Shown here in pieces: positions 13,989-31,730 of a stretch of 40,908 nucleotides of DNA. The position numbers were made by a program, and so were the translations under genes. Position 1 is the stretch's first letter, and each line of letters begins with the position of its first letter. Source of the DNA: Terriglobia bacterium (GTDB lineage Bacteria > Acidobacteriota > Terriglobia > Bryobacterales > Bryobacteraceae). The notes beneath the pieces were generated by a model. The model worked only from the letters and a program-made list of their open reading frames with translations. It had not been told where the DNA came from and ran no database searches. The stretch covers positions 1 through 40,908 of the forward strand of contig JAIQFJ010000005.1 of assembly GCA_020073325.1 (NCBI GenBank), given 5' to 3'.

Positions 13989-14023
13989 CGTTTGCATTGC
14001 GGCCCTGCAAAACTTTTTTGCGA

Positions 14024-14091
14024 TAGGGTCAATACAGCCTGACCCTAGGGCCGGTTCCTGATGGTAGCGAATGGCAAAGGTAAGTACCATC
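14024..14091 (+). other. Hairpin-rich leader of second chitinase gene
   Basis: Within the 349-bp gene-free stretch 13899-14247 there are two consecutive perfect hairpins: TAGGGTCA-N8-TGACCCTA (14024-14047) and GATGGTA-N18-TACCATC (14060-14066 with 14085-14091). The shared 20-nt element spans the junction between them. The arrangement could be an operator followed by a structured 5' leader. It did not match the GEMM, TPP, cobalamin, SAM or glycine riboswitch signatures I know. Nothing else was recognised in the stretch apart from the terminator of the preceding gene. Confidence 0.4.
14046..14065 (+). promoter_or_regulatory. Shared chitinase upstream element, copy 2
   Basis: TAGGGCCGGTTCCTGATGGT, 17/20 identical to the element at 12280-12299 and on the same strand. 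Its first two bases belong to the right arm of the TAGGGTCA hairpin and its last six form the left arm of the GATGGTA hairpin, so the region may act as folded RNA or as overlapping protein sites. Confidence 0.45.
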
Positions 14092-14247
14092 GACATGTAG
14101 TTAACGTTTCCGCAGGCCGAGTGGTACCGAGTCCTGCTGCTTTTGAAAAACCAGCCCTCCTCTTGAAAGCGCGCCACTCATCCCCTGCCCGCGTCGCGTC
14201 GCCGGCGCTCTTTTAGCAAGACCAGAAAGAAAGGGTTTAGTCTGTCT

Positions 14248-16575
14248 ATGTACTCAGGGAGTATTCTGTCCGTTTCGCGGGCGTGGAGATATTTCACGCT
14301 AAGCGCCGCCGCGCTGTTATCGATGAGCTTTCCGATCAAGGCTCAATGGGTCACGGCTTATTACATCAATACAAGCATTTACGTGAACGATATTCCGTGG
14401 TCCAAGGCGACCCACGTGGTCGACCTCGGCGTGAGTCCGTCGAGTTCGTCGGGAAATATCGCCGGCATCGCCGGTTCCGACGCCGACGCCTTCACGGCCG
14501 CCGCACATGCCAACGGAAAGAAGGCGCTGTTATGCGTCCGCGACGCGGATGGCAACATCGGCCTGTTCGGTTCCGCCATCACCAACAACCTGAGCGGATT
14601 CGTCGGCAACATCGTGAGTTTCGTGAACGCGCACAATTACGACGGCGTGGACCTCGATTGGGAAGCCGGAAATTTCAACGGCCCCGACGCGGCGAACTAC
14701 ACGAATTTCATCGCGGCACTCCGCAGCGCGCTGGGATCGGGCAAGCTGATCACGATGGCCGCCTACTGGAATTACGGCCTTGCCAATGTCGTGCAGAACA
14801 GCAGTTCGCGCCTGAACCAGGTCAACGTGATGTGCTACGACATGGACCAGTGGAATAGCGACGTCTATTACAACCTGGCGACGACGCTCGCCGCCGGCGA
14901 CACGACGCACAATTCCTGCGCCACGCAGGCCGCGAATTTCGCTGGCTATATTCCCGCCGCGAAAATCGGCCTCGGGATTCCCTTCTACGGCCGCGTGTGG
15001 ACCGGCTGCGCCGATTCAGCCTGTTCCGACGGCTTGCACAACCTGCTTCAAACCTGGAGTAGTCAGAACAACAACCCCATCGCCTATCGCGACCTGGTTG
15101 CCTCCAGCTACTGGTCGCAGCCGCATCAATGGGATGCGACGCGCGGCGCAAGCTATATTTCGATCAACGGATCGGGATCTTCGGGCGACCGGTTTATTTC
15201 CTACACCGACAGCCAGCAGATCAATTCCATGGTTCAGTTGATGCGCTCCGGCGGGTACGGCGGAATTATGGAATACGAAGTGGACTACGATTTCATGTCG
15301 AACCAGACCGGCGATGCGCGTCATCCGCTGGCAACCGCGGCATGGGCCGCCGTCTTCGGGTCGACCTCGACGCCGAGCACTCCGTCGACACCCACGGTGT
15401 CGGCGCCGGTGGTTTCTTCGGGATCGCCCAGCGGTACGCTGCCGGCGACCACGACGCAGGCAACGATGACGGTCGCAACGAATGAAAACGCGACCTGCAA
15501 ATATGCAACGACGGCGGGAACCGCGTACTCGTCGATGCCTTCGACCTTCTCCACCACGGGCGGCACCGCGCATTCCACCGCTCTTTCGGGGCTGACCAGC
15601 GGCCGGACGTACACCTATTACATCCGCTGCGCCAGCAGCGGGGTCGCGGATACCACCGACTATCAGGTGTCATTCGCCACCGCCGCGCCGCCGACGATCA
15701 GTTCCGGCGTCACGCTGACTCCGTCCTCGGGCTCCGGCTATAGCCAGAACTTCACCGCGCAAGTGATCGACGCGAACGGAGCCTCCGCGCTCACGCAGGT
15801 CGATCTGATCATCGGCTCGGTGGGGACCACGAATAGCTGTTGGGCCGAATACGCCCCGGCAACGCGGACGATCTATCTTCGCGATAACAATAACAACTGG
15901 ATGCCGGCCGCGCTCGGCTCTTCGACCGTGCTACAGAACAGCCAGTGTTCGCTGAATGCCGGTTCGTCCAGCGCCGCGACTTCGGGTGCCGGCACACAGC
16001 TCAACGTGAACTTCGCCATGAGCTTCACATCGTCATACGTAGGCGCGCAGCCGCTGGTGACGTTCGTGGCCGATTCCAGCAATTGGCTGACGGGCTTCGT
16101 GACCGAAGGAACCTACAACGTCACGGCTCCACCGGTTGTGGCCGGGATGTCTCTCTCGCTCAGCCCCGCGAGCGGCGCGGGAAGCTCCGCCAAGTTTGTG
16201 ATGAAGGCGACCGACTCGGCCGGCTATGCGTCGGTCCAGCAGTTGAACCTCTTCATCGGCAGCAACCTCGGCGACGCCAATCAGTGCTACATGGACTACG
16301 AAGCGTCGTCGCGCACGCTGTACCTGATGTCGAGCGACAACAGCCACTGGATGCCGGGCACCGTGGGAAGCCAAACGACGCTGATTAACAATCAGTGCGC
16401 GATTCATCTGTCCCAGGTCCTGGTGGTGGGATCGGGCAACACACTGACGGTCACCATTCCGGTGGCGCTCAATCCGTCCACGTTCAGAGGCGCGAAGTCG
16501 GTCCTCACCTTCGGCGCCGACGCCGCCGGTCAAGTAAGCGGCTGGCGTCAGGCCGGAACGTGGACCGTACAGTAA
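14248..16575 (+). CDS. Secreted multidomain GH18 chitinase-like protein 2
   Basis: A 775-residue secreted protein. The signal sequence ends near PIKAQ (about 33). The GH18 barrel (about 34-370) has DGVDLDWE (D132, D135, D137, catalytic E139), VNVMCYDMD and IGLGIPFYGRVW. A Thr/Ser/Pro linker leads to an Ig-like domain (about 385-480, two Cys). Two copies of a module of about 115 residues follow (about 485-630 and 635-775). Each contains a V/L-DL/NLFIG segment, a Cys about 10 residues later, a TRT/SRTxYL..DN..WMP strand and a second Cys, implying one disulfide per repeat. Such repeats are probably adhesive or carbohydrate-binding. The start ATG follows AAAGGG at a somewhat long spacing. A strong terminator follows. 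The catalytic domain is closest to the protein at 16644. Confidence 0.92.
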   Translation: MYSGSILSVSRAWRYFTLSAAALLSMSFPIKAQWVTAYYINTSIYVNDIPWSKATHVVDLGVSPSSSSGNIAGIAGSDADAFTAAAHANGKKALLCVRDADGNIGLFGSAITNNLSGFVGNIVSFVNAHNYDGVDLDWEAGNFNGPDAANYTNFIAALRSALGSGKLITMAAYWNYGLANVVQNSSSRLNQVNVMCYDMDQWNSDVYYNLATTLAAGDTTHNSCATQAANFAGYIPAAKIGLGIPFYGRVWTGCADSACSDGLHNLLQTWSSQNNNPIAYRDLVASSYWSQPHQWDATRGASYISINGSGSSGDRFISYTDSQQINSMVQLMRSGGYGGIMEYEVDYDFMSNQTGDARHPLATAAWAAVFGSTSTPSTPSTPTVSAPVVSSGSPSGTLPATTTQATMTVATNENATCKYATTAGTAYSSMPSTFSTTGGTAHSTALSGLTSGRTYTYYIRCASSGVADTTDYQVSFATAAPPTISSGVTLTPSSGSGYSQNFTAQVIDANGASALTQVDLIIGSVGTTNSCWAEYAPATRTIYLRDNNNNWMPAALGSSTVLQNSQCSLNAGSSSAATSGAGTQLNVNFAMSFTSSYVGAQPLVTFVADSSNWLTGFVTEGTYNVTAPPVVAGMSLSLSPASGAGSSAKFVMKATDSAGYASVQQLNLFIGSNLGDANQCYMDYEASSRTLYLMSSDNSHWMPGTVGSQTTLINNQCAIHLSQVLVVGSGNTLTVTIPVALNPSTFRGAKSVLTFGADAAGQVSGWRQAGTWTVQ

Positions 16576-16605
16576 CTTCGATTCTCTACTGAAACAGAGA
16601 GCCTT

Positions 16606-16641
16606 GGGAGGCGGCCGGCAACGGCTGTCTCCCTTTTTTTT
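16606..16641 (+). terminator. Intrinsic terminator after GH18 gene 2
   Basis: The stem GGGAGGCGGCC / GGCTGTCTCCC (11 bp including two G-U pairs) with loop GGCAAC is followed by eight T. It ends 2 bp before the stop codon of the convergent GH18 gene 3. The T tract is only on the plus-strand side, so it serves gene 2. Confidence 0.85.
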
Positions 16642-16643
16642 AT

Positions 16644-17741
16644 TTATTGCGAGCCGAACACCGCCGAGTAAACCGCCGCGGCCAGCGGATGGCGCGCGTC
16701 ACCCTGTTGCGAGGCAAAGAAGTCGTACTGAAGCTCGTATTCCATCACACCTCCATAGCCGCGGTTATTCATCAGTTGCACGATGGACCCGATCTGTTGG
16801 GCGTCGGTGTAGCTGATGAACCGGTCGTTGAGCGAGCCGTTTTGATCGATCGAGATATAGCTTGCTCCGCGCGCCGCATCCCAACTGTGCGGAGCAGACC
16901 AGTAGCTGGAAGCGACCAGCTTGTTATAGTGCATCGTCTTTTGGGTGGGGTTCGCAAACCAGACCTGCAGCGGGTCGTGCAGGCCGTCATTGCAGAAAAT
17001 ATCGGCGCATCCGGTCCACATACGTGCGTAGAATGGAATTCCCAATCCGATTTTCGACGCCGGAACATATCCCGAAAAATTGCCGGCCTGGGTGGCGCAG
17101 CTATTGTGAGTGGTATCGCCCGACGCGCTATAAGTCGCCGTGTTGAAATACAGATCGCTGTTATATTGATCCATGTCGTAACACATGACGTTGACCTGAT
17201 CGAGATTCGACACCGTTCGCTGCACCACGGAAGCGAGCCCATACTGCCAGTACACGGAAATCGTCATGATCTTTGTGGGACCAAGCAGATTTCTTAATTC
17301 CATGATCAGGTTGATGTAATTATTCTGGTCGATCAGGCCGTTATAGTTTCCAGCCTCCCAGTTCAGATCGACTCCGTCGTAATTATGGGCCTGCACGAAC
17401 GACGCGACGTTGTTCGCGAAGCCGTTGAGGTTATTTCTCAGCACGGTGGAAAACAACGAGATGATCGAATTGTTATCGCGGACGCAGAGCAGCGCTTTAA
17501 CCCCCGCCTGGTGAGCCGCCGCGGTGAATGCGTCGGCGCTGGCTGGATCCACGGTCGTGATCCCCCCGGCGGGATCGGACGGATTAATCGCGAAATGGAT
17601 GACATGCGTCACCTTGGACCACGGGATATCGTTAAGCGACATGCTGCCGTCCATATAGTAAGCTGTGATCCACGGTTGAGCTTCCGCGGAAATGCTAAGT
17701 GGAAGAGAAGCCAGGAAAAAGAAAGCCATCGTGTGCGACAT
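16644..17741 (-). CDS. Secreted GH18-like protein 3 with altered catalytic motif
   Basis: A 365-residue single-domain GH18 protein with signal peptide MSHTMAFFFLASLPLSISA. It is clearly paralogous to the barrel of the 14248 protein (shared HNYDGVDL, VNVMCYDMDQ, GDTTHNSCATQA, SKIGLGIPFYARMWTGCAD). The active-site motif reads DGVDLNWE: the general acid E129 is present, but the third Asp is Asn (N127, codon AAC at 17361-17363). In characterised chitinases this Asp positions the substrate acetamido group, and Asn there sharply lowers activity, so this may be a weak enzyme or a chitin-binding lectin. It has no linker or accessory modules. Start choice is uncertain: ATG 17750 and TTG 17762 are in frame. 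It begins 26 bp after the glycosyltransferase stop, so co-transcription is likely. Confidence 0.9.
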   Translation of the reverse strand: MSHTMAFFFLASLPLSISAEAQPWITAYYMDGSMSLNDIPWSKVTHVIHFAINPSDPAGGITTVDPASADAFTAAAHQAGVKALLCVRDNNSIISLFSTVLRNNLNGFANNVASFVQAHNYDGVDLNWEAGNYNGLIDQNNYINLIMELRNLLGPTKIMTISVYWQYGLASVVQRTVSNLDQVNVMCYDMDQYNSDLYFNTATYSASGDTTHNSCATQAGNFSGYVPASKIGLGIPFYARMWTGCADIFCNDGLHDPLQVWFANPTQKTMHYNKLVASSYWSAPHSWDAARGASYISIDQNGSLNDRFISYTDAQQIGSIVQLMNNRGYGGVMEYELQYDFFASQQGDARHPLAAAVYSAVFGSQ

Positions 17742-17767
17742 AGATCCCATTTCTTTCTGCAATCATT

Positions 17768-19237
17768 TCATTCACCCGGTCTCTGCCGGGTGTACAGCGT
17801 GTAATAACTGTTGGAAAAAGCCAGACGGTATTGTCGATTTAAGAAGTCAGCGATATAAGTCCGGACCGGCTGCGGCGCATCCTTTATATAGGACTCGTAA
17901 CGCGGATCGAGAACGATATTATCCGGAGTTTGTCCGGTATAGAAGCCAAGCCGGGGATCGTCCAGAACATTTTCGAAGCCCAGCCCGAAACCGAGCTCGG
18001 CGGTTCCCATCGTGAATGTGCCGGGAGCGACGTGTTCGATCAACGGCATATAGGTCTTGCGATATTTGTCCTGCACGATCACCATCGCGGGATAGGCCAG
18101 TTGCAGGCCGATAAAGGCAGCCATCGCAGCGGTCCAGGCAGACCGCCGGGGCACCGCAAGAGCGAGCAGCGCGGCCAGCGGGAAGACGAGATAGATCAGG
18201 TACCACGGCTGTTTCGCGCCCTCGAACAACAACAGGATCATGGCGATGAGCCCAGCCTGGACGAGCGCGACTTTCGCAAGAGGATTTCTGCGCAGGCGCG
18301 GCGTGGCGAGGACCGCGATCACGGCCGTAAGATAGGCGGCGAGAATCAGAAGCCGCACGTCGGCGAGGCGGCTCCAGGCGGATCCCATGGTGTAGCCTCC
18401 GATGTAGCGCTCGACAACTTCGCGCCGAACAGCGAGCAGCGGCAGCTTCCAGGGCCACAGCCGCTCGCCTGAATTTCCGCCGAATTGCGCGAGGAAAAAT
18501 TGGGGCGCGCGGGCGATGTAGAGTCCCCAGGCGGCGGCGCCGGCCGCATACGGAATCGCGGCGATCGCGATGCGACGCGCGCCGTCGAAGTAGAACTGGA
18601 GGCAGACCAGCGACGCAAACGCGGCGAGTCCGCCGATGGGATGCGTCAACCCGCTGGCGGCGACAAAGGCATGCGCGACCAGCACGGCTGTGGTGAGTTT
18701 CGACGCGCGCAGCGTCAGATAGCTGGCCTGCGCGGCGGCTCCGAAGGCGAGGCTGAGCATGTCGCTACGGCCGGTTCCGGCCAGAACCAGGAACGAAGTG
18801 TCGACGGCGATCAGTCCCATAACGAAAAGCGCCAGTCTCTCCCGCGACGTGATACGCCGTACGACGATGTAGAAACACAGCAACGCCGCGAGTCCCGCAA
18901 CTGCGGACAGCATGCGTGCCGAAAACAGGCTCGGCCCGAAGATCCGGTCCCACGCGGCCTGCACCAGGATGTGGACCGGCATGATCCAGTACGTTTTCTG
19001 ATCGATGCCTGTGAGAAACGTGCCGGCGCTCTCGAGCACCGGTGACCCCATATTTCCGTGGCGAATCAGATGGAGCGCCGGATCGGCGTACCAGCCTTCG
19101 TCGCAGATGGGAATTTTCGTGAGACTGAGGGCGGCGGCGATCAGCATATAGGCGGAGGCGATGACTGCAAGCGTCACGCGGCGTGCGTGGGCACGCAGAA
19201 CCGCGTCGTCTGTGGCTGGCTCAACTGCTGTCTGCAC
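17768..19237 (-). CDS. GT39-type membrane glycosyltransferase (ArnT/PMT-like)
   Basis: A protein of about 489 residues with roughly ten membrane helices. After the first helix comes PICDEGWYADPA (D46-E47 in this numbering), the periplasmic acidic pair expected of GT-C family 39 enzymes (ArnT, protein O-mannosyltransferases). These transfer sugars from polyprenyl-phosphate donors to lipids or proteins at the outer face of the inner membrane. The region about 110-135 (VVRRITSRERLALFVMG) and the long helical middle fit the PMT_2 layout. The acceptor is unknown; the downstream GH18 gene suggests an envelope-sugar context. GTG at 19235-19237, with GGAG 8 nt upstream, is chosen over a GTG 14 codons earlier that gives a Cys/Arg-rich N-terminus. 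Confidence 0.85.
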   Translation of the reverse strand: MQTAVEPATDDAVLRAHARRVTLAVIASAYMLIAAALSLTKIPICDEGWYADPALHLIRHGNMGSPVLESAGTFLTGIDQKTYWIMPVHILVQAAWDRIFGPSLFSARMLSAVAGLAALLCFYIVVRRITSRERLALFVMGLIAVDTSFLVLAGTGRSDMLSLAFGAAAQASYLTLRASKLTTAVLVAHAFVAASGLTHPIGGLAAFASLVCLQFYFDGARRIAIAAIPYAAGAAAWGLYIARAPQFFLAQFGGNSGERLWPWKLPLLAVRREVVERYIGGYTMGSAWSRLADVRLLILAAYLTAVIAVLATPRLRRNPLAKVALVQAGLIAMILLLFEGAKQPWYLIYLVFPLAALLALAVPRRSAWTAAMAAFIGLQLAYPAMVIVQDKYRKTYMPLIEHVAPGTFTMGTAELGFGLGFENVLDDPRLGFYTGQTPDNIVLDPRYESYIKDAPQPVRTYIADFLNRQYRLAFSNSYYTLYTRQRPGE

Positions 19238-19379
19238 CGGACAAGCTCCGCGCGGATGTCGCGTTACATCGCGACACACAACGCCTGCATTGAAGTGAGC
19301 ATGTACGCTTCCAGCGGGAAGTCGATCATTTACCGGGATCGGGCGGGCAAAGAATCAAGGGAAGGTGCGCGAAGTGGAA

Positions 19380-21692
19380 TCACTCTTCCACGGTTTCGAC
19401 CGACTCGAGGGGCGCAAGGGGAAGGCTGAAAGAAAACGTGGATCCCTCGCCGACGCGGCTGCTGACCCAGATACGGCCGCGCTGTCCTTCGACCAGCCTC
19501 TTCGACAATTCCAGGCCGAGCCCCGTCCCGCCGATTTTACGGGTCGCCGTGTTGTCGACGCGGAAGAAGCGCGTGAAGAGCTTGGGCAGGGCTTCTTCGG
19601 GGATCCCGATGCCCCGATCTCTGACCGAGATCACCACTTCCCGGACGCCTTCGGTTGCCGAGAGTTCGATGGCGCTGCCGCGCGGAGAAAACTTGCGTGC
19701 GTTCGACAGAAGATTGTCGAGCACCTGCCGCACGCGCTCGCCGTCGGCGGAGACCAGCGGCAGCGATTGATTCACCTGCAGGCGCAGCGTGTGGTCTCCG
19801 TCGCCGGTGCTGAACAACTGCGCCGCTTCGCGAACCACGCGCTCGATCGCCATGGGCCTGGTGTGGAAGCGCTCGCGTCCGGCGGCGATCCGTTCCAGAT
19901 CGAGAAAATCGTTGACCAGTTCCGTCAGGCGGCGGCTTTCGCGATGAATGATGTGCAGAAACCGGCGCATTCGTTCCTGCGGGAAATCGCGGGTGAGCAT
20001 CAGTTCGGCGAAGCCGTAGAGGCTGGTGAGGGGCGTGCGAAGCTCGTGGCTGACGGTGGAGATCAGATCGTTCTTCAACTGTTCGATCTCTTTGTGATGC
20101 GTGATGTCGACCTGGACGCCGACGAAATGCGTCACCGCTCCATCCGCACTGTGGATCGGCGTGATGGAAAGACGATTCCAGAAAGTTCGCCCATCCTTGC
20201 GCATATTGAGTAGCTCCACGACGCAAGGACGGCGCTCAAGGATCGCGCCGCGAATTTCGGCTACGGCGGCAGGATCGGCCCCGGCGCCTTGCAGGAAGCG
20301 GCAATTGCGGCCGAGCACGTCGGCGGCGTGGTATCCGGTCAGCGTTTCGAAGGCGGGGTTCACGTAGACCAGCGGCTGGTCCGGCGCGAGCGCGTCGGAA
20401 ATGGTGATCCCTTCGCTGGCCGCGGCGACCGCCCGCTGGAACAGGACGAGCTCGGCCTCGGCCTCGGTCTTGCGGCGCATGGCGAGCTGCAGCTCGGCGT
20501 TGTTGCGATTCAGATCGTCGGTGCGCTGCGCGACGCGCAATTCCAGCTCGTCGTTCATGCGCCGCAACTGCGCGTGGGAGGCGAGCATCCGGGACGTCAT
20601 GAACTCAAGTCCGCGATGCAGCTCGGCGATTTCCGCGGCGGCGCCGGCGCGAAGCTGGGGAAGGCGCATATCGGGCTCGCGGCCCTCGGCCACGGCTTCG
20701 ACCAGATTGTGGCCGCTTGCGGCGAGATGTTCGAGCGGACGCGTCACGCGCAGCGCGGCCATGCGCGCGACCACCAGGCACAGCAGTGTTCCCGCGCCGA
20801 GCCCGGCCAGCAGATTGCGAAGCCAATCCAACATCGTCGCGCCGAAATTCGAGGCCGGCTCAAAGACGAAAACCTTCCAGCCATAATGCGACCCGCCCGC
20901 GGATTGCGCCACGATATAGTTCCGCGTTCCTTCGCGCTCGGCAAACGGCGTGGCCGCCTGCCGGCGCACGAGAGAGGTCGAAGAAAGGTCCTGAAGCGGC
21001 GCAAATGGGAGCGAGGGACTCGAATAGGCGACGCGATTCGCGCCGTCGACAATGACGATCGCCGTGGAGCGGTTGCTGTACTCCGCCGCGAACTGGCGGA
21101 GCTTCTGCAGGTCGAGCGATCCTTCCACGATTCCGGCGGGCTTGCCCGCGGTGTCCACATACGCGCGGGCCACGGCGACCAGCGGATCCGTGCCGAGGCC
21201 GCGGCCGCGAAAGGTTCCCGAGACGAACGGCTCCGGCGATTGCATGGCGCGCCGGAAGTATTCGCGGTCCCCGACATCGCCCGCGCCGGGCGACCGCACC
21301 AGCGCGCCGTCGGGACGAATCGCCATCATCACATTTCCGTTTTGATTCGCCACCAGCATGGTGAGAAACCCGGGATAATTTTCGCGAAACGTGCGGATCG
21401 CTTCGCGCCACACAGCGGGATTCCTGCGGTGCTCCGGCGGAACGATTCGCGCGAGCGCGTCGACGGCCTGGGTGTGGCGATCGATGTAGTCGTCGATGCG
21501 GCGCTGAATCGCGCTGGCGCGGCCCGCCGTGCTTCCGGCCGTGCTGATTTCGCGAATCCGATAGGAGCGCTGTGCGTCCATCAGGCTGACGATCAGGACC
21601 GGAACGGCGGCCACCGCGAGCAACACGCGAAAGAGCTGCGTGCGCAGCAGCGGCGGACGGGCGGGCTCCGCAAATGGGTTGGTTCCCGTCAC
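19380..21692 (-). CDS. LOV-domain membrane sensor histidine kinase
   Basis: A 770-residue kinase. TM1 (about 18-37), periplasmic dCache-like sensor (about 45-280), TM2 (about 291-314), HAMP-like linker (about 315-370) and coiled coil (370-420) precede a PAS domain of LOV type (about 422-532). This domain has GRNCRFLQG with the photoreactive cysteine C464 (codon 20301-20303), plus N496 in LLNMRKDG, N506 in FWNRL and Q527 in VGVQ, matching the flavin-contact residues of plant LOV2. HisKA carries VSHELRTP (H549), and the HATPase has NLLSNARKFSP, DRGIGI and GGTGLGLEL. It should bind FMN and respond to blue light as well as to a periplasmic ligand. The start is GTG with AGGAG 4 nt upstream. It lies 7 bp after a receiver gene and downstream of an HD-GYP gene in one operon. 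Confidence 0.93.
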   Translation of the reverse strand: MTGTNPFAEPARPPLLRTQLFRVLLAVAAVPVLIVSLMDAQRSYRIREISTAGSTAGRASAIQRRIDDYIDRHTQAVDALARIVPPEHRRNPAVWREAIRTFRENYPGFLTMLVANQNGNVMMAIRPDGALVRSPGAGDVGDREYFRRAMQSPEPFVSGTFRGRGLGTDPLVAVARAYVDTAGKPAGIVEGSLDLQKLRQFAAEYSNRSTAIVIVDGANRVAYSSPSLPFAPLQDLSSTSLVRRQAATPFAEREGTRNYIVAQSAGGSHYGWKVFVFEPASNFGATMLDWLRNLLAGLGAGTLLCLVVARMAALRVTRPLEHLAASGHNLVEAVAEGREPDMRLPQLRAGAAAEIAELHRGLEFMTSRMLASHAQLRRMNDELELRVAQRTDDLNRNNAELQLAMRRKTEAEAELVLFQRAVAAASEGITISDALAPDQPLVYVNPAFETLTGYHAADVLGRNCRFLQGAGADPAAVAEIRGAILERRPCVVELLNMRKDGRTFWNRLSITPIHSADGAVTHFVGVQVDITHHKEIEQLKNDLISTVSHELRTPLTSLYGFAELMLTRDFPQERMRRFLHIIHRESRRLTELVNDFLDLERIAAGRERFHTRPMAIERVVREAAQLFSTGDGDHTLRLQVNQSLPLVSADGERVRQVLDNLLSNARKFSPRGSAIELSATEGVREVVISVRDRGIGIPEEALPKLFTRFFRVDNTATRKIGGTGLGLELSKRLVEGQRGRIWVSSRVGEGSTFSFSLPLAPLESVETVEE

Positions 21693-21699
21693 GGATCTC

Positions 21700-22077
21700 C
21701 TATTCGATTTGCGAGGAAGCGAGCAGCGATTCGACCTGCCGGACCAGTTCGAGCGGACTGAAGGGCTTCGACAGAAACGCGCTGGCTCCGGCGGAGATTC
21801 CGGCCTGGCGATCCTCGGCCTGGCTGCGCGCCGTCAACAGAATGACGGGAATGGCACGCGTCGCGGGGTCGGCTTTCAGCGCGCGAACCACGTCGACGCC
21901 GGACATGCCGGGCATCATCCAATCCATCACCACCAGCGAGGGCAGCTCGGCGCGCGCGATCGAGAGGGCTTCGCTGCCGCTCTGCGCTTCGAGGATTTCG
22001 TAATCGGCGTCTTCGAGCGTCGCCTGCAACAGCAGCCTGAGTTCTTCCTGATCGTCGACGAGCAAGATCTTGGGCAT
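21700..22077 (-). CDS. Single-domain response regulator (CheY-like receiver)
   Basis: A 125-residue lone receiver domain: acidic pocket VDDQEE, phospho-acceptor Asp in VVMDWMMPGMSG, Thr in LLTARS and Lys in FLSKPFSP. It has no output domain, so it works by protein-protein contact. Start ATG 22077 has AAGGA at proper spacing; an in-frame upstream start would fall in the HD-GYP tail. It sits between the HD-GYP gene (17-bp gap) and the LOV kinase gene (7-bp gap). This makes it the obvious phospho-acceptor for the LOV kinase and a candidate regulator of the phosphodiesterase. That link is inferred from gene order. Confidence 0.93.
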   Translation of the reverse strand: MPKILLVDDQEELRLLLQATLEDADYEILEAQSGSEALSIARAELPSLVVMDWMMPGMSGVDVVRALKADPATRAIPVILLTARSQAEDRQAGISAGASAFLSKPFSPLELVRQVESLLASSQIE

Positions 22078-22094
22078 TCCAGTTTCCTTTCCGG

Positions 22095-22919
22095 TCAGAG
22101 TTCCCACGCGGCGTCATCGCCGCAGTTCCGAAAGATTTCTTCAAATTCGCGATGCATGGTTTCGAACAGGCGCAACAGTTGTGGATCGAAATGTTCGGGG
22201 CGGCTGCGGTCGTCGCCGTCCAGAATGATGGCGACCGCGGTCGCGTGATCGAGCAGCGGCTTGTAAGCCCGGCGCATCCGCAGCGCGTCGTAGGTATCGG
22301 CCAGCTTGACGATGCGTCCCTCGATGGGGATCTGTTCCCCGGCCAGGCGATTGGGATAGCCCGTACCGTCGTAATGTTCGTGATGCGTGGCGGCGATGCG
22401 GCAGGCCGTTTTGAGCAGCGGCGAGTTGGACCCGTCGAGCACCTGCGCCCCGATGCGCGTATGCTCCCGCATCAGCGCCCATTCGCTTTCGTCGAGCTTT
22501 CCGGGCTTCCGCAGAATCGCGTCGGGAACGCCGATTTTTCCGACGTCGTGAAGCTGCGAGGCCCGGAATATACGGTCGGCGTAGCGTCCCGATCCGTTGA
22601 GCCGCTGGCAGGCCAGGCGCGCGTACAGGCCGACGCGCCAGATATGCGCGCCGGTTTCTTCATCGCGAAAACGGGAAGCTTTAAGCAGCCGCACCGCGGT
22701 TTCCTCCTGCGCCTGCGCCACTTCATTGGCGCGCTCGCGCTCGCTGCGGCGAACGTGGCGAAAATCGATGGCGAAGGCTTTCAGTTGACGCTGCGCGGCG
22801 GCGAGCTGCTCGCCGCGATCCAGCAGGATCTGTTCCTGTCTGGCGATGTAGCTCTGCAGCGAGTGAAGATCGCTCCGCGCGATCGCGTCGCTGATTTCAG
22901 GCGGGCACGTGAGCAGCAT
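22095..22919 (-). CDS. HD-GYP domain c-di-GMP phosphodiesterase
   Basis: A protein of about 274 residues with a helical N-terminal part (LHSLQSYIARQEQILLDRGEQ region, coiled-coil-like) and a complete HD-GYP domain. Present are ETGAHIWRV, the metal-binding HDVGKIG, the REHTRIGAQVL helix, HHEHYDGTGYP (full HHExxDGxGYP consensus) and KLADTYDAL. All metal ligands of active c-di-GMP hydrolases are present, so degradation to pGpG/GMP is predicted. The start is uncertain. ATG 22919 leaves a 176-bp divergent promoter region; an in-frame ATG at 23093 would add 58 Gly/Ser/Arg-rich residues and abut the divergent gene. First gene of the operon with the receiver and LOV kinase. Confidence 0.9.
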   Translation of the reverse strand: MLLTCPPEISDAIARSDLHSLQSYIARQEQILLDRGEQLAAAQRQLKAFAIDFRHVRRSERERANEVAQAQEETAVRLLKASRFRDEETGAHIWRVGLYARLACQRLNGSGRYADRIFRASQLHDVGKIGVPDAILRKPGKLDESEWALMREHTRIGAQVLDGSNSPLLKTACRIAATHHEHYDGTGYPNRLAGEQIPIEGRIVKLADTYDALRMRRAYKPLLDHATAVAIILDGDDRSRPEHFDPQLLRLFETMHREFEEIFRNCGDDAAWEL

Positions 22920-23019
22920 TTGCCCGAAAGAATGCACGTTTTGCGCCGAACCGCGGATGGCGGCAAGTGCCCGCAATTCAATGCCAATCGCGTTTCCCGC
23001 AGCCGCCGGCTTTCCCGAT

Positions 23020-23039
23020 TCCGAACCCGCGGGTTCGGA
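23020..23039. promoter_or_regulatory. Perfect 20-bp palindrome in divergent promoter region
   Basis: TCCGAACCCGCGGGTTCGGA is fully self-complementary. It lies 101 bp from the HD-GYP start (22919) and 57 bp from the hybrid-kinase start (23096), the right place for a dimeric repressor or activator site controlling both. It could also be a stand-alone palindromic repeat. Confidence 0.45.
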
Positions 23040-23095
23040 TCGCGAACCTCGCTCATACTTCCGGCGGATAGGGCCGATGAGAAGTAGGAACATCC

Positions 23096-25429
23096 GTGCC
23101 TGCCATCGAGATTCCCGCACCGATCCCGGAAAGCGTCCCGTTCGATTTGGAGCAGATGCGGTCGATCTTGAGACATTTGAAGGAAGTCGTGTTTCAAACG
23201 GATGCCGCGGGCCGCTGGACCTACCTGAGTCCGGCATGGTCGGAAATTACAGGCTTCGCGGTCGAGGAAACGCTCGGGCGCGTCTTCCTGGATGCGGTGC
23301 ATCCCGACGATCGCGAGGGCAACCTGGAGCGATTCCGGCCGCTGATCGCGCGCGAAAAGGAGTCGTGCCGGCATGAGGTGCGCTACCTGCGCAAGAATGC
23401 CGAGCCATGCTGGATCGAGGTGCATGCGCGGCTGACGCTCGACCGGCATGGGGAAATCATCGGGACATCGGGCACGCTTTCCGACGTCACGGCGCGGCGG
23501 ATCGCGACCGACCGGCTGCGCGAGACGACGGCCGAATTGCAGAAGCGCGAGACGCTGCACGAGGCCATGATGGCGGCAAGCCCGATCGGACTGCTGGTGG
23601 TCGATCCCGCGAGCGACCGGATTCTGCGGGTCAGCGACCGTTTTTGCGAGCTGACATGCCTGGCGGGCGCGGCGGATGCGATGCGCCGGGGGTTGATTTC
23701 CGCCTCCGATCTGCGGGAGGCCATCCGTTTGCAGACCGCCGACGGCGTCGGCGCGCGCGATCTGCTGCGCGGTCCGAACCGCCAGGAAATCACGATGCGC
23801 GACGGCCGCGTGCTTTCGATTCATGGGACCGAGGTCCGCGACCCTGCGCACGGCAGTTACGGCTGCCTCTTCGGCGTCGAAGACGTGACCGCGATGAAAG
23901 ATGCCGAGCGCGCGATGCTGTCGGCGCGGGCCGAGATGGAACGCCACGCCGACCAGCGCACACGCGAGCTTTCGAGCGCGCTTCACCGGCTGCGCGAGAG
24001 CGAGGAGTTATATCGGACCGTAGTCGAAACGTCGCCCGACGCCCTGCTCTTCACCAGCATGGAGGGGCGCGTGGAAATGGTGAACGAGCGCGCGGTGTCG
24101 CTGTTCCATTGGGAATCCGCCGAGGCGATGGACGGGTTGCGCATCGAACATCTGGTGAAGGCCGAATCCGCGTCCGCTCTGCGAAACGCCTGGGAGGAAA
24201 CGCGCCGCGGCGCTTCGCAGAACGTGGAGTGCTGGCTGCGGCGCCACGACGGCTCCCTCTTTTTTGCCGACATCAGCGGATCGATCGTGCCGGACCCCTC
24301 CGGCGGTACGCGCTTTCTGGTGGTGGATATTCGCGACAACACTCCCCGGCGCCAGTTGGAAGAGCAGCTTCTACAGGCCCAGAAAATGGACGCGGTGGGG
24401 CGACTCGCAGGCGGCGTCGCGCACGACTTCAACAATCTGCTGACGGTGATCAAGGGCTACAGCGAGCTGCTGCTGAAGAAACTTCCCGCGGGCGAGACCA
24501 CCACGAACCGCGTCGCGCAGATCGCCAGGGCCGCGGATCGAGCGGCGGGGCTGGTGGGACAACTGCTCGCGTTCAGCCGCAAGCAGTCGGTGGAGCCGAA
24601 AATCATCGATGTCAATCGGGCGATCACGGACCTGCACAAGATGCTGCGGCGGCTGATCGGAGAAAACATCGCGCTCGACAGCGTACTCGATCCCCGCGCG
24701 GGCTGCGTGCGGATCGATCCCACGCAATTCGATCAGATGATCATCAACCTGGCGGTGAACGCGCGCGACGCGATCGGGGAATCGGGTCGAATTACGATTC
24801 GCACGCACGCGCTCGATTCGGCCGTGGCGATTTCGATCGCCGACACCGGCGCGGGGATGACGGAAGAAGTCCGGTCGAAAATTTTCGAGCCGTTCTTTAC
24901 GACGAAAGAGGTCGGCAAAGGGACCGGGCTGGGATTGTCGACGGTGTACGGGATCGTCGAGCAGGCGGGCGGCAGAATCGTCGTAACGACGGCCCCTGGC
25001 GAGGGAACCACGATGGAAGTACGGTTCGGCTCGACGGTTCCCGAAAACGCCGCGTCGGAGGAGGAGGGCGACGGCGAGTCGGCGCGAGGCTGCGGAACGA
25101 TTCTGGTGGCGGAGGACGAAGACCTGGTGCGCGCGATGATCGTCGAAACGCTGGAGGATCGCGGCTACCGCGTGATCGAAGTGCGCGACGGCCGCGAAGC
25201 GATCGAGGCTGCCCGGGCTGCCGGGCCGATCGACCTGTTGTTGTCCGACGTGGTGATGCCGCAGATAAGCGGCACGCAGTTGCGCGACGAAATTTCGCGC
25301 ATCCGTCCGGAGACGCGCGTCATCCTGATGTCGGGCTACGCCGAGCATGACACGTCGCAGGAAGCGTGGCTGCAAAAGCCCTTCGATCCGCGCACGCTGG
25401 CCGACCGGGTCAGGGACGTGCTGCGCTGA
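23096..25429 (+). CDS. Triple-PAS hybrid histidine kinase with C-terminal receiver
   Basis: A 777-residue cytoplasmic protein without membrane segments. PAS 1 (about 20-135; [16 protein letters not shown], then a PAC motif ending TLSDVTARR), degenerate PAS 2 (about 155-270), coiled coil (270-300) and PAS 3 (about 303-418) are followed by HisKA with [14 protein letters not shown] (H443). The HATPase domain has [17 protein letters not shown] and [13 protein letters not shown] receiver (about 650-777) follows, with phospho-acceptor D718 in LLLSDVVMP and K761 in LQKPF. The AHDFNNLL type is common in hybrid kinases that dephosphorylate or relay internally. None of the PAS domains has the LOV cysteine. 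The start is GTG with AGGA 6 nt upstream. It is divergent from the HD-GYP operon and ends 1 bp from the convergent NtrC-type regulator. Confidence 0.93.
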
Positions 25430-25430
25430 G

Positions 25431-26768
25431 TCAGCGCAGTTGGTAGTCTTTCAGTTTTTTGTACAGCGTCGTTTTTCCGATGCCCAGCACCTTCGCCGCG
25501 CGGACGCGATGGCCGCGCGTGGATTCGAGCGCCTCGGAGATTGCCTTGCGTTCGACCGTTTCCAGTTTTCCGATCGCTGCCCCGGCGGATGGGACACTGT
25601 CACGAACTTCGGGCGCCAGGTCGCGCGGCTCGATCCGCGGGCCGTCGCTCACCGCGATCGCACGCTCAACGTGATTGCGCAATTCACGGACATTGCCGGG
25701 CCAGGAATGGCGCGCCAGCAGATCGAGCGCCGTGCGCGAAATTCCCGCCACCGGGTTGCCTGGACCGCGCTCCTGGTCGACGAAGGCCAGCGCGAGAGCG
25801 GCGATGTCCTCGCTCCGGTCGCGCAGCGGAGGAACGCGGACGGGCAGAACGTTCAAGCGGAAGTACAGGTCCTGGCGAAACGTCCCGTCCTTCACGGCGG
25901 CTTCCAGGTCGCGATGGGTGGCGGCGACAATGCGCGCTTCAAAAGGCTGCGGCTGATTGGCGCCCACCGGGCGAATTTCGCGCTGTTGTATCGTGCGCAG
26001 CAGCTTCGCCTGCATCTCCAGCGGCAATTCGCCCACCTCGTCGAAGAATACGGTTCCCCGTTTCGCCGCCGCGAGCAGACCCACCCGCCGCTGCGATGCG
26101 CCGGTGAAGGCGCCGTGCGTGTGCCCGAACAGCTCGCTTTCGATCAGCGCCGGACTGAGCGCGGCGCAATCGACCGCCACGAAAGGATCGCCCGCGCGCG
26201 GACCGCATTCGTGGATCGCGCGAGCCACCAGTTCCTTGCCGGATCCGCTCTCGCCCGAAATGAGCACCGCCTGCGGCCGCTGTGCGATTTTCAGGATCAG
26301 CCGGTACAGATCGAGCATCACCGGCGACGCTCCGATCATCCCGCCCGGTCCGCGGCCCGTGCGCAACTGATCGCGCAGCAGGCGATTTTCGGCCGACATT
26401 TCTTTGCGTTCCGCCAGGCGGGCGACGCGCGTGATCAGCTCGTCGATCGAGAACGGTTTGCGGACATAATCGTACGCGCCCAGGCGCAGCGCGGCGACGG
26501 CGCTTTCGACGGTGGCGTAGCCGGTCATCAGGATCACGTCGGTCCGCCGAAAGTTTTCGCGAATTTCGGCGAGCAGTTCGAGGCCGCTCATTTCCGGCAT
26601 GGAAAGATCGCTCAACACGATTTCGCGTGGCGCGGCCGCCAGCGCCACAAGCGCCTCGCGCGCGGAAGCGGCGCTCGCAACCGCATATCCGTCACCGGCC
26701 AGCGCATCGGCGCACAGGGCGCGGATATCCGGCTCATCGTCGACGATCAGAATGCTGGACGCACGCAT
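25431..26768 (-). CDS. NtrC-family sigma-54-dependent response regulator
   Basis: A 445-residue transcriptional activator. Receiver (1-120, D54 in VLSDLSMPEM, Lys in VRKPF), AAA+ sigma-54 interaction domain (about 143-370) with Walker A GESGSGKE (172-179), the sigma-54-contacting loop GAFTGA (219-224), Walker B VFFDE (240-244) and the RLNVLPVRVPPLRDR segment, and a Fis-type helix-turn-helix (RAAKVLGIGKTTLYKKL) at the C-terminus. Phosphorylation would drive oligomerisation and sigma-54 promoter opening. The closest kinase is the convergent PAS hybrid kinase, 1 bp away stop-to-stop, a likely but unproven partner. No clear sigma-54 promoter (GG-N10-GC with flanks) was found in this window, so its targets are probably elsewhere. 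Confidence 0.95.
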   Translation of the reverse strand: MRASSILIVDDEPDIRALCADALAGDGYAVASAASAREALVALAAAPREIVLSDLSMPEMSGLELLAEIRENFRRTDVILMTGYATVESAVAALRLGAYDYVRKPFSIDELITRVARLAERKEMSAENRLLRDQLRTGRGPGGMIGASPVMLDLYRLILKIAQRPQAVLISGESGSGKELVARAIHECGPRAGDPFVAVDCAALSPALIESELFGHTHGAFTGASQRRVGLLAAAKRGTVFFDEVGELPLEMQAKLLRTIQQREIRPVGANQPQPFEARIVAATHRDLEAAVKDGTFRQDLYFRLNVLPVRVPPLRDRSEDIAALALAFVDQERGPGNPVAGISRTALDLLARHSWPGNVRELRNHVERAIAVSDGPRIEPRDLAPEVRDSVPSAGAAIGKLETVERKAISEALESTRGHRVRAAKVLGIGKTTLYKKLKDYQLR

Positions 26769-26802
26769 ACCGGAGTGCTTATCGGCCGCGTCCGGCGAAA
26801 CT

Positions 26803-27720
26803 TCAGTTGGTTGGCGAATGCGTGCGCACCGGCATCGGGTCTTCCAGCGGATTTAACTTCGAATCGAAATATTGCACCGACATCGTGCTCTGATCGATGC
26901 GTAGATCGAGAAATCCGTAGGAGACGTGGCGGAAAACCGTGCCCGGCTTCGTGCCGTGAAATTGACGGAGGCGCGCTCCGCCGCCGCCGCAGATGAAGAA
27001 ATCCATCCCGTCGGCGCGCACGTGCTCCATGTCGTGATCGTGACCGCAGATATAAGCATCAACTTTGGCGGACTTCAGCACGGGCAGCAACTCCTCGCGC
27101 AGCTCGCCGATGCGCCGTTCGTTCAGATGCACGCCCGAGGTGTAAATCGGATGATGGCCGTAGACGATCCGCCACTTGATTTCAGGATCGCCCGTCGATT
27201 CCTCCAGCGTCGTGCGGATCCATTCGAGCTGCTTCCGCGACCAGCCTTCGGTGTCGATCGCCACAAACAGCACCGGTCCTGCTTTAAAGGAGTAATACCG
27301 CGCCGGCATGTGCCAGCTCTTGCTTTTCTTCGAATAGGCGACTTCGGCGTCGGGCGAGCCGCGTTCGGCGGGGCAGATCACCGGCGGATGTCCGTAGTCG
27401 TGATTGCCCAGCGTCGCGTAGAAGGGAATGCCGAGAGGTGTGTACAGATTCTCCCAGCGCGACTTCCATTTCGGATCGTCGACGCCGCGCACGCCGCAGC
27501 GATAGAAATTATCGCCCATGGTGATCCCGAGATTGAACGGCTGCTGCTCATGACGCCGCGCCATCGCACGGGCCGTCTGCGCCTGCACCGGAGCGCCGCT
27601 GCCGAAATCGCCGAACGCCAGAACGTGCAGCGCCTGGTCGGCGGGAAGCACGCGTCCGGCATTTTCCTGGGCAAAAAGGAACGATGAAAATACAACGAAG
27701 GGAAAAACTCGAATCATCAT
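26803..27720 (-). CDS. Secreted metallophosphoesterase (purple acid phosphatase-like)
   Basis: A 305-residue calcineurin-like phosphoesterase with signal peptide MMIRVFPFVVFSSFLFAQ. The dimetal motifs are in order: LAFGDFGSG, ITMGDNFY, LGNHDYG, IVYGHHPIY and ICGHDHDMEH. GDNFY together with the short length and the pattern of motifs resembles mammalian-type tartrate-resistant (purple) acid phosphatases (ACP5). It is predicted to hydrolyse phosphomonoesters in the periplasm or outside the cell, helping to scavenge phosphate. The frame is open upstream for 38 codons, but those residues are not signal-peptide-like, so the double ATG at 27715-27720 is preferred. It is divergent from the cytochrome gene and no Pho box was recognised. 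Confidence 0.9.
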   Translation of the reverse strand: MMIRVFPFVVFSSFLFAQENAGRVLPADQALHVLAFGDFGSGAPVQAQTARAMARRHEQQPFNLGITMGDNFYRCGVRGVDDPKWKSRWENLYTPLGIPFYATLGNHDYGHPPVICPAERGSPDAEVAYSKKSKSWHMPARYYSFKAGPVLFVAIDTEGWSRKQLEWIRTTLEESTGDPEIKWRIVYGHHPIYTSGVHLNERRIGELREELLPVLKSAKVDAYICGHDHDMEHVRADGMDFFICGGGGARLRQFHGTKPGTVFRHVSYGFLDLRIDQSTMSVQYFDSKLNPLEDPMPVRTHSPTN

Positions 27721-28038
27721 CTGCTCGACTGCTGTGGAACCGGCACCTTCAGCATAGCGGGTGTGCGCCATCGCGCGAAGCTTCACCCAAAACTGGGTGA
27801 GCGATCTCCCGCACCCCATCGCGTTTTCCCGCAATTCCTTTCGACGGCGGACTTCAGTCCGCGCAGCGATTCAGCGCCGCAGATCCCGCGGAGCCGGACC
27901 TCCAACTCAAAGTTTTTCATTCAGATAATCCGCGCCCCGCTTCCGAGCCGCGCGCCGGCAAGCCGCTCCGCCCAGCTCGCGGAACCTCAATTGCAATGCC
28001 CTTCGGAACATCGGTCAGCTTTTGGAAAGGAGCTTGAC
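27721..28038. other. Divergent intergenic region with short palindrome
   Basis: A 318-bp gap between the phosphatase and cytochrome genes. It contains the hairpin GCGGACT-TC-AGTCCGC (27847-27862), related to a sequence near 40751-40770, an AT-richer patch near 27905-27925 that could hold a promoter, and the strong ribosome-binding site GGAAAGGAG just before 28039. No gene is supported in it. Confidence 0.45.
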
Positions 28039-29418
28039 ATGCCTCGTGCCACGTTCCCCGGCGCCCAGCGCATGATTGCTGTGGGCGCGTCTCTTCTCGG
28101 AGCCTCGCTGGTTCTCCAGGCGGCGGACGCCGAAAAGAAGCCCGTCACCTTCTCGAACCAGGTGGTTCGAATCTTCCAGGAAAAATGCCAGGACTGCCAT
28201 CGGCCCGGCACTGTCGCGCCGATGTCGCTGGTGACTTACGAGGAGACCCGCCCCTGGGCGCGCTCTATTAAGGAACGCGTCGTGTCGCGAAACATGCCGC
28301 CCTGGCATATCGACGCCACTTACGGCGTCCGCCACTTCGCCAACGACATGTCGCTCAGCGAGGACCAGGTGCAGACCATCGTGAAATGGGTCGACGCCGG
28401 CTCGCCCCGGGGCGACAAGGCCGATCTGCCTCCCGTCAAACAGTGGCCCAACGACGACGGCTGGCAGCTCACCAGGGAATTTAATCGGCCGCCCGACCTG
28501 ATCGTCAAGTCCGATCCGTACACGATGCCCGCGAACAGCCAGGATCAGTGGTGGCGTCCTCTCTCCGAAATTAATCTGACCGAACCGCGCTGGGTGCGCG
28601 CCGTCGAAATGCGCCCGGGCAGCAACGCGGGTCGGAAGATTACGCATCACGCGCTGGCGCACCTGGTTCAGGACGATCCCGACGCGCGCCGTCTGTCCGA
28701 TCCGGTGGGCAGCGGCGGCAATCGCGGACCGAATGAGGCCGGCACGCTGATGGAATGGGCCATCGGCAAAAGCTACGACATCTACCGCGAAGGCACCGGC
28801 AAGCTGTTGCTGCCCGGGTCGCATATCTGGTGGGACATCCACTATCACGCGGTGGGCGAAGCGATTCGCGATCACGTCGAGCTGGGCGTGTGGCTCTATC
28901 CCAAAGGACAGGAGCCGAAATATCGCACCTACCTGACCGGCTTCCAGGCCGTTTCCCGCGTCGGCGCCGCGCTCGACATCGCGCCCAACTCGATCACCGC
29001 CAGCGACAGCTTCACCGTCCTCAAGGCTCCCGCGCGCCTGGAAAATTATCAGCCGCACATGCACCTGCGCGGCCGGGCGATGGCCATGGAAGCGATTCTT
29101 CCCGACGGAACGATCCAGCCGATCGCCAGCGTCGACCGCTTCGACTTCAACTGGATGACGAACTACATCTTCACCGACGACGAAGCTCCGGTCCTGCCCA
29201 AAGGCACCGTGATCCATGTCAAAGCCTGGTTCGACAACACGGCCGCGCACAAAGGCAATCCCGATCCCGACCAGTGGGTCGGCTGGGGCGATCGCACGGT
29301 CGACGAGATGGCGCATGCCTGGGTCAACGTCACTTACATCTCGGAGGAAGACTACGCCGCCTGGGCCGCGAAGCACAAGAAAGCCGCCGAGCCAGGTCGT
29401 GGAGGAACGATCAATTAA
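28039..29418 (+). CDS. Secreted cytochrome c fused to PHM-like copper domain
   Basis: A 459-residue exported protein. Signal peptide to about A29. A short cytochrome c domain with CQDCH (C50, C53, H54) and RPGTVAPMSL, M62 being the likely sixth ligand. A domain of about 310 residues follows with the histidine pattern of copper type II ascorbate-dependent monooxygenases: THHALAH (H203, H204), IHYH (H268/H270) and PHMHLRG (H340, H342). These align with the CuH pair, third CuH ligand and CuM pair of peptidylglycine hydroxylating monooxygenase; a Met for CuM could be in FNWMTNY. The heme domain may feed electrons to copper in place of ascorbate. Substrate unknown. ATG 28039 has GGAAAGGAG. First of three same-strand secreted-protein genes. 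Confidence 0.87.
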   Translation: MPRATFPGAQRMIAVGASLLGASLVLQAADAEKKPVTFSNQVVRIFQEKCQDCHRPGTVAPMSLVTYEETRPWARSIKERVVSRNMPPWHIDATYGVRHFANDMSLSEDQVQTIVKWVDAGSPRGDKADLPPVKQWPNDDGWQLTREFNRPPDLIVKSDPYTMPANSQDQWWRPLSEINLTEPRWVRAVEMRPGSNAGRKITHHALAHLVQDDPDARRLSDPVGSGGNRGPNEAGTLMEWAIGKSYDIYREGTGKLLLPGSHIWWDIHYHAVGEAIRDHVELGVWLYPKGQEPKYRTYLTGFQAVSRVGAALDIAPNSITASDSFTVLKAPARLENYQPHMHLRGRAMAMEAILPDGTIQPIASVDRFDFNWMTNYIFTDDEAPVLPKGTVIHVKAWFDNTAAHKGNPDPDQWVGWGDRTVDEMAHAWVNVTYISEEDYAAWAAKHKKAAEPGRGGTIN

Positions 29419-29459
29419 ATGCACACCGAAGCGTCCTGCACACCCATAAAGGATCCCTC

Positions 29460-30314
29460 ATGAAACCGATCTTCTTCCTGACCCTCGCCTCCATCCTCGG
29501 AGCCCAGCAGCTCCCGCTCGAACCGCGCCACGACGCCGGACAAAGCATCACTGGCGTCTTCGAAGGCTGGTACAAGAATCCCGACGGCACCTTCAGCCTC
29601 CTGTTCGGCTACTACAACCGGAATCTGAAAGAATCGCTCGACATCGCCATCGGCCCCAACAATCGCATCGAGCCCGGCGGCCCCGACCGCGGCCAGCCGG
29701 CGCACTTCGTCGCCGGACGCATGTGGGGCAGTTTCACGGTCGCCGTTCCCGCCGATTTCGGGACCGGCAAGCTCACCTGGACCATCGTCGCCAACGGCAA
29801 ATCGACCGTGATCCCGGCGAGCCTCAAGACCGACTGGGAAATTTCCCCGTTCCTTGACGCCACCAACAACACGCCGCCGTGGATCAGCTTCCACGATTTC
29901 GATCACGACGGCCCCGTCGCGCAAGGCCCGCGCTCCGTCACCGCATCGACGGAAGCCACCACCGGCGCGCCCTTCACGCTCGACGTGTGGGCCGCCGACG
30001 ATAACGTCGTTTCTCCAGGAACACGCCAGCCGAGGTCCCCCGTTTCCGTCGTATGGACGAAATTTCGCGGACCCGGCGCCGTGACGTTCTCCACCGCACG
30101 TCCTGAAGTTCACAAATTCGACGGAAAGATGCCCCCCAAAGCGACCTTCGCCGGCAAAGCGACCACCACCGTCACCTTCAGCGAACCCGGTGAGTACGTC
30201 CTGCAAGTCATGGCCACCGACGCCTCCGGCGAGGGCGGCGGCGGGTTCCAATGCTGCTGGACCACCGCTCATCTGAAGGTCTCCGTCAAGGGCGAATCCG
30301 CCACCGGTCGTTAA
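29460..30314 (+). CDS. Secreted protein of unknown function
   Basis: A 284-residue protein with signal peptide MKPIFFLTLASILGAQQ. The mature part is mostly beta-strand. VFEGWYKNPDGTFSLLFGYYNRN opens a first beta domain, and the C-terminal third (TKFRGPGAVTFS to VMATDASG) resembles a PKD/Ig-like module. A late pair of cysteines (FQCCW) is the only Cys content noted. I do not recognise a catalytic motif. ATG 29460 is preceded by AAAGGA at 6 nt. It follows the cytochrome/PHM gene by 41 bp and precedes the metal-binding gene by 5 bp, so it is probably part of the same exported redox or metal system. Confidence 0.8.
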   Translation: MKPIFFLTLASILGAQQLPLEPRHDAGQSITGVFEGWYKNPDGTFSLLFGYYNRNLKESLDIAIGPNNRIEPGGPDRGQPAHFVAGRMWGSFTVAVPADFGTGKLTWTIVANGKSTVIPASLKTDWEISPFLDATNNTPPWISFHDFDHDGPVAQGPRSVTASTEATTGAPFTLDVWAADDNVVSPGTRQPRSPVSVVWTKFRGPGAVTFSTARPEVHKFDGKMPPKATFAGKATTTVTFSEPGEYVLQVMATDASGEGGGGFQCCWTTAHLKVSVKGESATGR

Positions 30315-30319
30315 CGCGT

Positions 30320-31717: not shown

Positions 31718-31730
31718 ACCCGAGGGACCC

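Follow-up and report, generated by a model that had tools for sequence, protein, structure and literature searches.

A predicted operon of a dCache-LOV histidine kinase, a lone receiver and an HD-GYP phosphodiesterase in a member of the Terriglobia

We analysed a stretch of 40,908 nucleotides from a Terriglobia bacterium of the family Bryobacteraceae (assembly GCA_020073325.1, contig JAIQFJ010000005.1), hereafter called the window. Three of its genes, on the minus strand (span 22919-19380), encode in order an HD-GYP protein, a receiver and a histidine kinase. The original prediction had read them as one operon in which blue light and an extracellular ligand control the breakdown of cyclic di-GMP (c-di-GMP). 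The three open reading frames, their positions and the gaps of 17 bp (HD-GYP to receiver) and 7 bp (receiver to kinase) were found as claimed, with the addition that the kinase starts with GTG. The features are as follows.

19380..21692, minus strand, histidine kinase, 770 amino acids, GTG start; transmembrane segment (~20-38), dCache (59-231, Pfam), transmembrane segment (~291-309), helical linker, LOV (~417-535), HisKA, HATPase
20073..20465, minus strand, LOV domain, kinase residues 410-540
21700..22077, minus strand, lone receiver, 125 amino acids, phospho-acceptor D52
22095..22919, minus strand, predicted HD-GYP phosphodiesterase, 274 amino acids; N-terminal helix 7-86, no receiver of its own
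22920..23095, no strand, intergenic region separating the operon from a divergent hybrid kinase gene, likely the promoter region

Inspection by eye revealed a Shine-Dalgarno-like AGGAG before the kinase GTG, overlapping the receiver stop codon, and AAGGAA ahead of the receiver ATG; translational coupling is therefore likely. The HD-GYP reading frame is open upstream to 23237, and its start at 22919, with no clear Shine-Dalgarno sequence, is a choice. Neither a sigma-70 consensus promoter nor a minus-strand terminator-like site was detected in 17600-23300, and Rfam gave no match anywhere in the window. The grouping of the three genes into a single two-component operon was judged jointly with the mechanism proposed below, and on that joint footing its chances appear about even.

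The domains of the kinase were examined by Pfam and by structure modelling. The dCache_1 family matched residues 59-231 with 53.0 bits, passing the cut-off of 45, and the sensor is bracketed by the two hydrophobic segments. A structure model of residues 1-410, with a mean predicted local distance difference test (pLDDT) score of 83.5, matched the dCache crystal structures of Tlp3 (3.8e-13), rpHK1S-Z16 (2.4e-12) and others. By Pfam and structure match, the predicted periplasmic dCache-like sensor holds up. Pfam further recognized PAS_9, HisKA (73 bits) and HATPase (102 bits), so that both parts of a histidine kinase core are present, with H549 as the phospho-acceptor.

LOV domains are marked by the motif GxNCRFLQ, which holds the adduct-forming cysteine, and by two asparagines and a glutamine that contact flavin mononucleotide (FMN). 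In the kinase, GRNCRFLQ occupies residues 461-468 with C464 as the adduct cysteine, and the FMN-contact positions N496, N506 and Q527 are likewise where a textbook LOV domain had been claimed. When residues 410-540 were compared with LOV-type and general PAS profiles, four LOV-type NCBIfam models scored 125-160 bits (PRK13559, 159.7; the YtvA family, 141.4; blue-light-activated histidine kinase, 137.2; PRK13557, 125.5), PRK13559 and PRK13557 being what we take to be LOV protein families. These scores exceed that of generic PAS (TIGR00229, 66.5 bits), which with NifL (68.9 bits) was the best non-LOV model, by 59-93 bits. The best PDB sequence match, 9vf8 'histidine kinase' (8.7e-38), carries GRNCRFLQ in the alignment, and phototropins and blue-light-activated histidine kinases are among the best 60 of 154 PDB matches. 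The NCBIfam family of blue-light-activated histidine kinases, NF052306, scored 135.2 bits, below its cut-off of 450, and its best-matching stretch is the LOV part (418-541). Judged by its sequence the LOV domain is genuine, and the model margin, the PDB match with GRNCRFLQ and the four key residues together make FMN binding and photochemistry very likely.

Searches with the whole kinase returned partial relatives. A contig scan of wider genomes yielded 16 loci, none full length, a weak negative because the scan used short exact peptide patterns; the best were Dongia-type LOV kinases, 38% identical over residues 407-760. Among 61 relatives searched at E 1e-60, the matches were the genome itself and a kinase-module match in G044. 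A plasmid search gave 19 records, of which the five best were short conserved-domain matches, none covering 80% of the query. The genome of the window also encodes, at 3677-6163 of locus L119 (G000:C154), an 828-amino-acid dCache histidine kinase paralogue with no Pfam PAS match, 29% identical in the sensor and 39% in the kinase module.

The hallmark residues of receivers, namely an acidic pair, an aspartate, a threonine and a lysine, are complete in the 125-amino-acid protein (D8, D9, D52, T82 and K104), in which Pfam finds a single domain and no output domain, as expected of a lone receiver. HD-GYP enzymes share the motif set E..H, HD..K, H, HH, GYP and D. The 274-amino-acid protein matched HD_5 with 101.6 bits and has metal-site and catalytic residues at E88, H92, H124, D125, K128, H153, H179, H180 and D208, with GYP at 187-189; none of these positions varies among the 22 aligned homologues. 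It is thus predicted to be a c-di-GMP phosphodiesterase with complete motifs, and it differs from the RpfG type, which has receiver and HD-GYP in one chain. Its structure model (mean pLDDT 89.1) places a single 80-residue helix (7-86) ahead of the catalytic domain, and matches the HD-GYP domain of PA4781 (E 1.3e-12) and the tri-nuclear HD-GYP 4mcw (5.4e-12), presumably PmGH. Six GGDEF places and eleven PilZ places lie above Pfam cut-offs in the same genome, so a c-di-GMP network is likely there.

To find relatives of the kinase module (residues 527-770), we searched 257 genomes of the order at E 1e-50 and 396 of the phylum at E 1e-58. In this and the other genome searches the best 7 to 17 of up to ~120 candidates were scored per genome, with misses possible, and gene calls at related loci are mechanical open reading frames chosen by BLAST score and length. 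Besides the window, eight places in 8 genomes reach E 1e-58 (G635, G605, G509, G510, G511, G513, G044 and G324). Five further relatives (G035, G602, G023, G603 and G495; E 1.1e-54 to 7.4e-51) fall outside this count by a cut chosen post hoc, and each has, within two genes, a receiver-containing protein of 230-273 amino acids on a separate receiver branch. Each of the eight relatives encodes, ahead of the kinase and in the same orientation, a lone receiver of 44-56% identity: immediately upstream of the kinase in four (G509, with a 207-bp gap, G510, G511 and G513), one gene away in three (G635, G605 and G044) and two genes away in one (G324). The kinase-receiver pairing is therefore well supported by comparison of these loci.

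The remainder of the gene run varies. An HD-GYP gene is present at two loci, L152 (order REC-HDGYP-HK, overlapping genes) and L163 (REC-HDGYP-HK-HK, with receiver and HD-GYP genes overlapping), each from a further family within the order or class. A soluble kinase of 274-280 amino acids takes the HD-GYP slot in two others (L129 and L132), and nothing lies between receiver and kinase in the remaining four, all of genus g243. Of the three-gene order whose conservation had been named as a check, the receiver near the kinase stood (8/8), and the HD-GYP gene (2/8) did not. The sensors by Pfam are PAS, GAF, PAS and LOV with the cysteine in L129, a sub-threshold dCache and a LOV with proline replacing the cysteine in L132, GAF in L152, PAS in the four g243 loci and REC-PAS-PAS in L163. 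From this variation in slot and sensor, kinase and receiver form a stable core with exchangeable sensor and effector, light input and HD-GYP output being variable attachments of a loosely conserved cassette. In the kinase-module tree the window, L129 and L132 lie on one side of a branch with support of only 58/61. In the LOV tree the window falls in a 25-row group (91/83) of mostly short LOV proteins with the cysteine motif, which includes L129 and excludes L132; on these trees, LOV may or may not be ancestral to this kinase branch.

From the domains, the catalytic residues, the gene order and the conserved kinase-receiver association, as read from sequence and models, we propose the following pathway. 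The dCache domain of the membrane kinase would sense an extracellular ligand, and its LOV domain, by means of bound FMN, would sense blue light or the redox state of the flavin. Light would form the Cys464-flavin adduct, upon which the helical linker would turn and alter autophosphorylation of H549. The phosphoryl group would pass from H549 to D52 of the lone receiver, which would act on the HD-GYP protein in trans and change c-di-GMP hydrolysis, the most likely route being the long N-terminal helix of that protein. FMN binding, the light response, the ligand, phosphotransfer, the receiver-HD-GYP contact, the sign of regulation and the sessile or motile outcome are what we infer here, and we regard the whole pathway, from ligand and light through kinase and receiver to HD-GYP, as evenly poised.

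A broader and more speculative reading would treat the operon as one version of a so far undescribed cassette, with the lone receiver as an adaptor that couples a freely exchangeable sensor kinase to an equally exchangeable effector in trans. Recognition of the effector, which is HD-GYP in the window and a minimal soluble kinase at L129 and L132, would depend on an N-terminal helix that these proteins have in common and that stands in for the receiver fused to RpfG-type proteins; blue light and a periplasmic ligand would here jointly govern c-di-GMP breakdown. A helix profile was trained on the N-terminal helices of seven HD-GYP proteins (window, L152, L163 and four g243 orphans) and searched against the open reading frames of the fetched loci. 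It found the slot kinases, which lie outside the training set (L129, E 3.9e-7; L132 weakly, E 0.0068), the next non-HD-GYP frame being at E 0.21; coiled-coil bias can inflate such scores. We consider this cassette reading rather improbable, having lowered its probability slightly because orphan HD-GYP proteins share the helix.

Several observations weigh against the proposed pathway. The HD-GYP gene is absent from six of the eight related gene runs, and in L163 the matching kinase is last, 306 bp past another kinase and two genes from HD-GYP. LOV with an adduct cysteine occurs in one of the eight relatives, and the swapped sensors weaken light as a dedicated input. The sole further Cache-LOV kinase that was found, that of L132 (4807-7086), has GRNPKFLQ, with proline in place of the adduct cysteine. 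HD-GYP homologues (46-54% identity) were found in 17 g5 and five g243 genomes, and neither the 15 mapped g5 loci nor the five mapped g243 loci have a receiver or kinase of the window type beside them, so the enzyme can work without this kinase-receiver system. The g5 orphans also match the helix profile (E 1e-14 to 7e-6), and the helix therefore need not be a receiver dock. In the HD-GYP tree the window, L152 and L163 group unconvincingly (window plus L152, support 44/31); a single clade of the three is not rejected by the approximately unbiased test (p-AU 0.121), and one origin of the three thus receives neither support nor rejection. The relatives, in sum, strengthen the kinase-receiver link and weaken the need for light and HD-GYP, so that the reading of light plus ligand acting on HD-GYP survives in its kinase-receiver part, with its dedicated light input and its HD-GYP link weakened.

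Two side observations concern these loci. The L132 kinase, which adjoins the same receiver type, is a natural light-dead or redox-type candidate. At the g5 loci (L100-L111, L113 and L114), a gene for 241-246 amino acids lies just upstream of the orphan HD-GYP in 14 of 15 mapped, and resembles the lipopolysaccharide-export ATPase LptB where read by eye (L107 and L111), a hint that c-di-GMP breakdown and lipopolysaccharide export may be connected.

The kinase-receiver pair could be real and its target elsewhere, such as another kinase, the chemotaxis machinery or a phosphorelay, with HD-GYP merely co-expressed. The four relatives with receiver and kinase but no neighbouring effector, the two with a small kinase instead, the g5 and g243 HD-GYP homologues that sit apart from such receivers, and chemotaxis genes ~10 kb from the operon all speak for it. 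Against it, the receiver, the HD-GYP and a kinase of this type turn up together again at L152, where the genes overlap, and at L163, where the receiver and HD-GYP genes do, and the slot proteins share an N-terminal helix. We rate it a possibility of some weight, on the doubtful side. The LOV could instead be a flavin redox or structural domain, with the dCache ligand as main input and light of little physiological role. Kinases of this type carry varied sensors, most of them without LOV, L132 has lost the cysteine in a similar Cache-LOV layout, and the cysteine-less LOV-like domain of RmcA is tied to redox as well as light in the portion of PMC8846402 that treats it. The photochemical residues of the window LOV, however, are intact, and it groups mostly with LOV proteins of the cysteine motif; this alternative seems unlikely.

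Lateral acquisition or contamination, which would make the operon atypical of the genus, appears less likely still. Searches with HD-GYP (1e-45) and with the kinase module (1e-50) gave no match in any of the 22 further genomes of the genus (G001-G022), 20 of the 22 being named as matchless in each search, several being incomplete and top candidates alone being scored; LOV at 1e-20 was matched in G001 only, by a different 477-amino-acid protein. When 14000-33900 was compared with five same-genus genomes at the DNA level, only short HD-GYP stretches (~22322-22558) matched inside the operon among the matches listed, and the assembly consists of 600 contigs with 4.46% contamination. Against this, stretches outside the operon match those five genomes (the longer ones at ~64-76% DNA identity, many from multicopy families), and the GC content of the operon region (0.64-0.65) is near that of the rest (0.59-0.65).

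Each part of the proposed pathway is of a known kind, and it is the combination that is unusual. In Xanthomonas, the membrane kinase RpfC controls the HD-GYP phosphodiesterase RpfG, as proposed for the operon; unlike the window, RpfG has its receiver fused to HD-GYP and the system is not known to have a LOV domain. In Caulobacter, LovR is a single receiver domain and LovK is not known to have a periplasmic sensor. Like the operon, LovK-LovR joins a LOV kinase to a cognate response regulator; unlike it, the pair acts, in the passages of PMC4844311 devoted to it, on the general stress pathway, with no HD-GYP. In Erythrobacter flavus 21-3, LOV-1477 activates DGC-2902 under blue light, so that a LOV kinase likewise reaches c-di-GMP through a separately encoded response regulator; there the output is a diguanylate cyclase that carries its own receiver and makes c-di-GMP, according to the relevant part of PMC12172448, whereas the window has a lone receiver, a separate HD-GYP for breakdown and a kinase with a periplasmic sensor. 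LOV-kinase control of c-di-GMP is thus already known for synthesis in Erythrobacter, not breakdown. Blue light leads to c-di-GMP breakdown through LOV in Synechococcus elongatus as well, by SL2, a single LOV-GGDEF-EAL protein with no kinase or receiver in the section of PMC8846402 concerned.

Among the loci compared here, Dongia and relatives (L043-L048) have LOV histidine kinases of 726-774 amino acids, with several hydrophobic segments in the three checked (L043, L045 and L047). Unlike the window kinase, they have PAS_7 and no dCache match by Pfam (L043-L045, L047 and L048 scanned); their modules are 33-36% identical, with no window-type receiver among BLAST-matched neighbours. The closest layout is that of L132, from the same family as the window (receiver, small kinase, Cache-LOV-like kinase; identity 56% for the receiver, 55% for the histidine kinase, 49% for LOV and 27% for the sensor), which differs in its proline-bearing LOV, its dCache score of 24 bits, below the Pfam cut-off, and a stretch without HD-GYP. 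Photoreceptor kinases are mostly soluble, in the wording of one passage of PMC6798134.

The combination had been called little described in Acidobacteriota, and open-access titles and abstract openings yielded no description of a Cache-LOV kinase or of a lone receiver with a separate HD-GYP; PMC11481889 and PMC13322254 did not decide the matter. LOV itself, on the other hand, is common in the family. At E 1e-20, 26 of 237 genomes of the family match, that of the window included, and G-x-N-C-x-F-L-Q is present in 17 of the 19 LOV places that were fetched from other genomes or loci, seven weaker matches (E 2.0e-23 to 5.2e-21) being left out of this count; a figure legend of a 2014 survey counts Acidobacteria as one of the phyla that have LOV or BLUF proteins (legend in PMC4844311).

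If the proposed pathway is true, the kinase, which joins an intact LOV to a sensor for a periplasmic ligand, would be a natural two-input receptor in which to study how two signals converge on a single kinase spine. Control of a separate HD-GYP by a receiver would illustrate how fusions of receiver and effector can be divided into two proteins, and the operon would offer an optogenetic route to lower c-di-GMP. It would also provide a light response that is concrete and testable, in a lineage that to our knowledge is not phototrophic, no search for phototrophy genes having been made.

The operon is flanked downstream, at 100 bp, by a PMT_2-like gene (17768-19279, Pfam), whose protein has no BLAST match within the related loci mapped. 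On the other side, across a gap of 176 bp, a divergent gene encodes a PAS-rich hybrid histidine kinase with a receiver (23096-25429, plus strand), and convergent with that gene is one for an NtrC-type sigma-54 activator (25431-26768, minus strand). The chemotaxis genes, on the plus strand, encode an MCP signalling domain (32706-33902), CheW (33915-34424) and CheR (36097-36918). Three glycoside hydrolase family 18 proteins are encoded next to one another downstream of the operon (12450-13898 and 14248-16575, plus strand; 16644-17762, minus strand), the last two being convergent.

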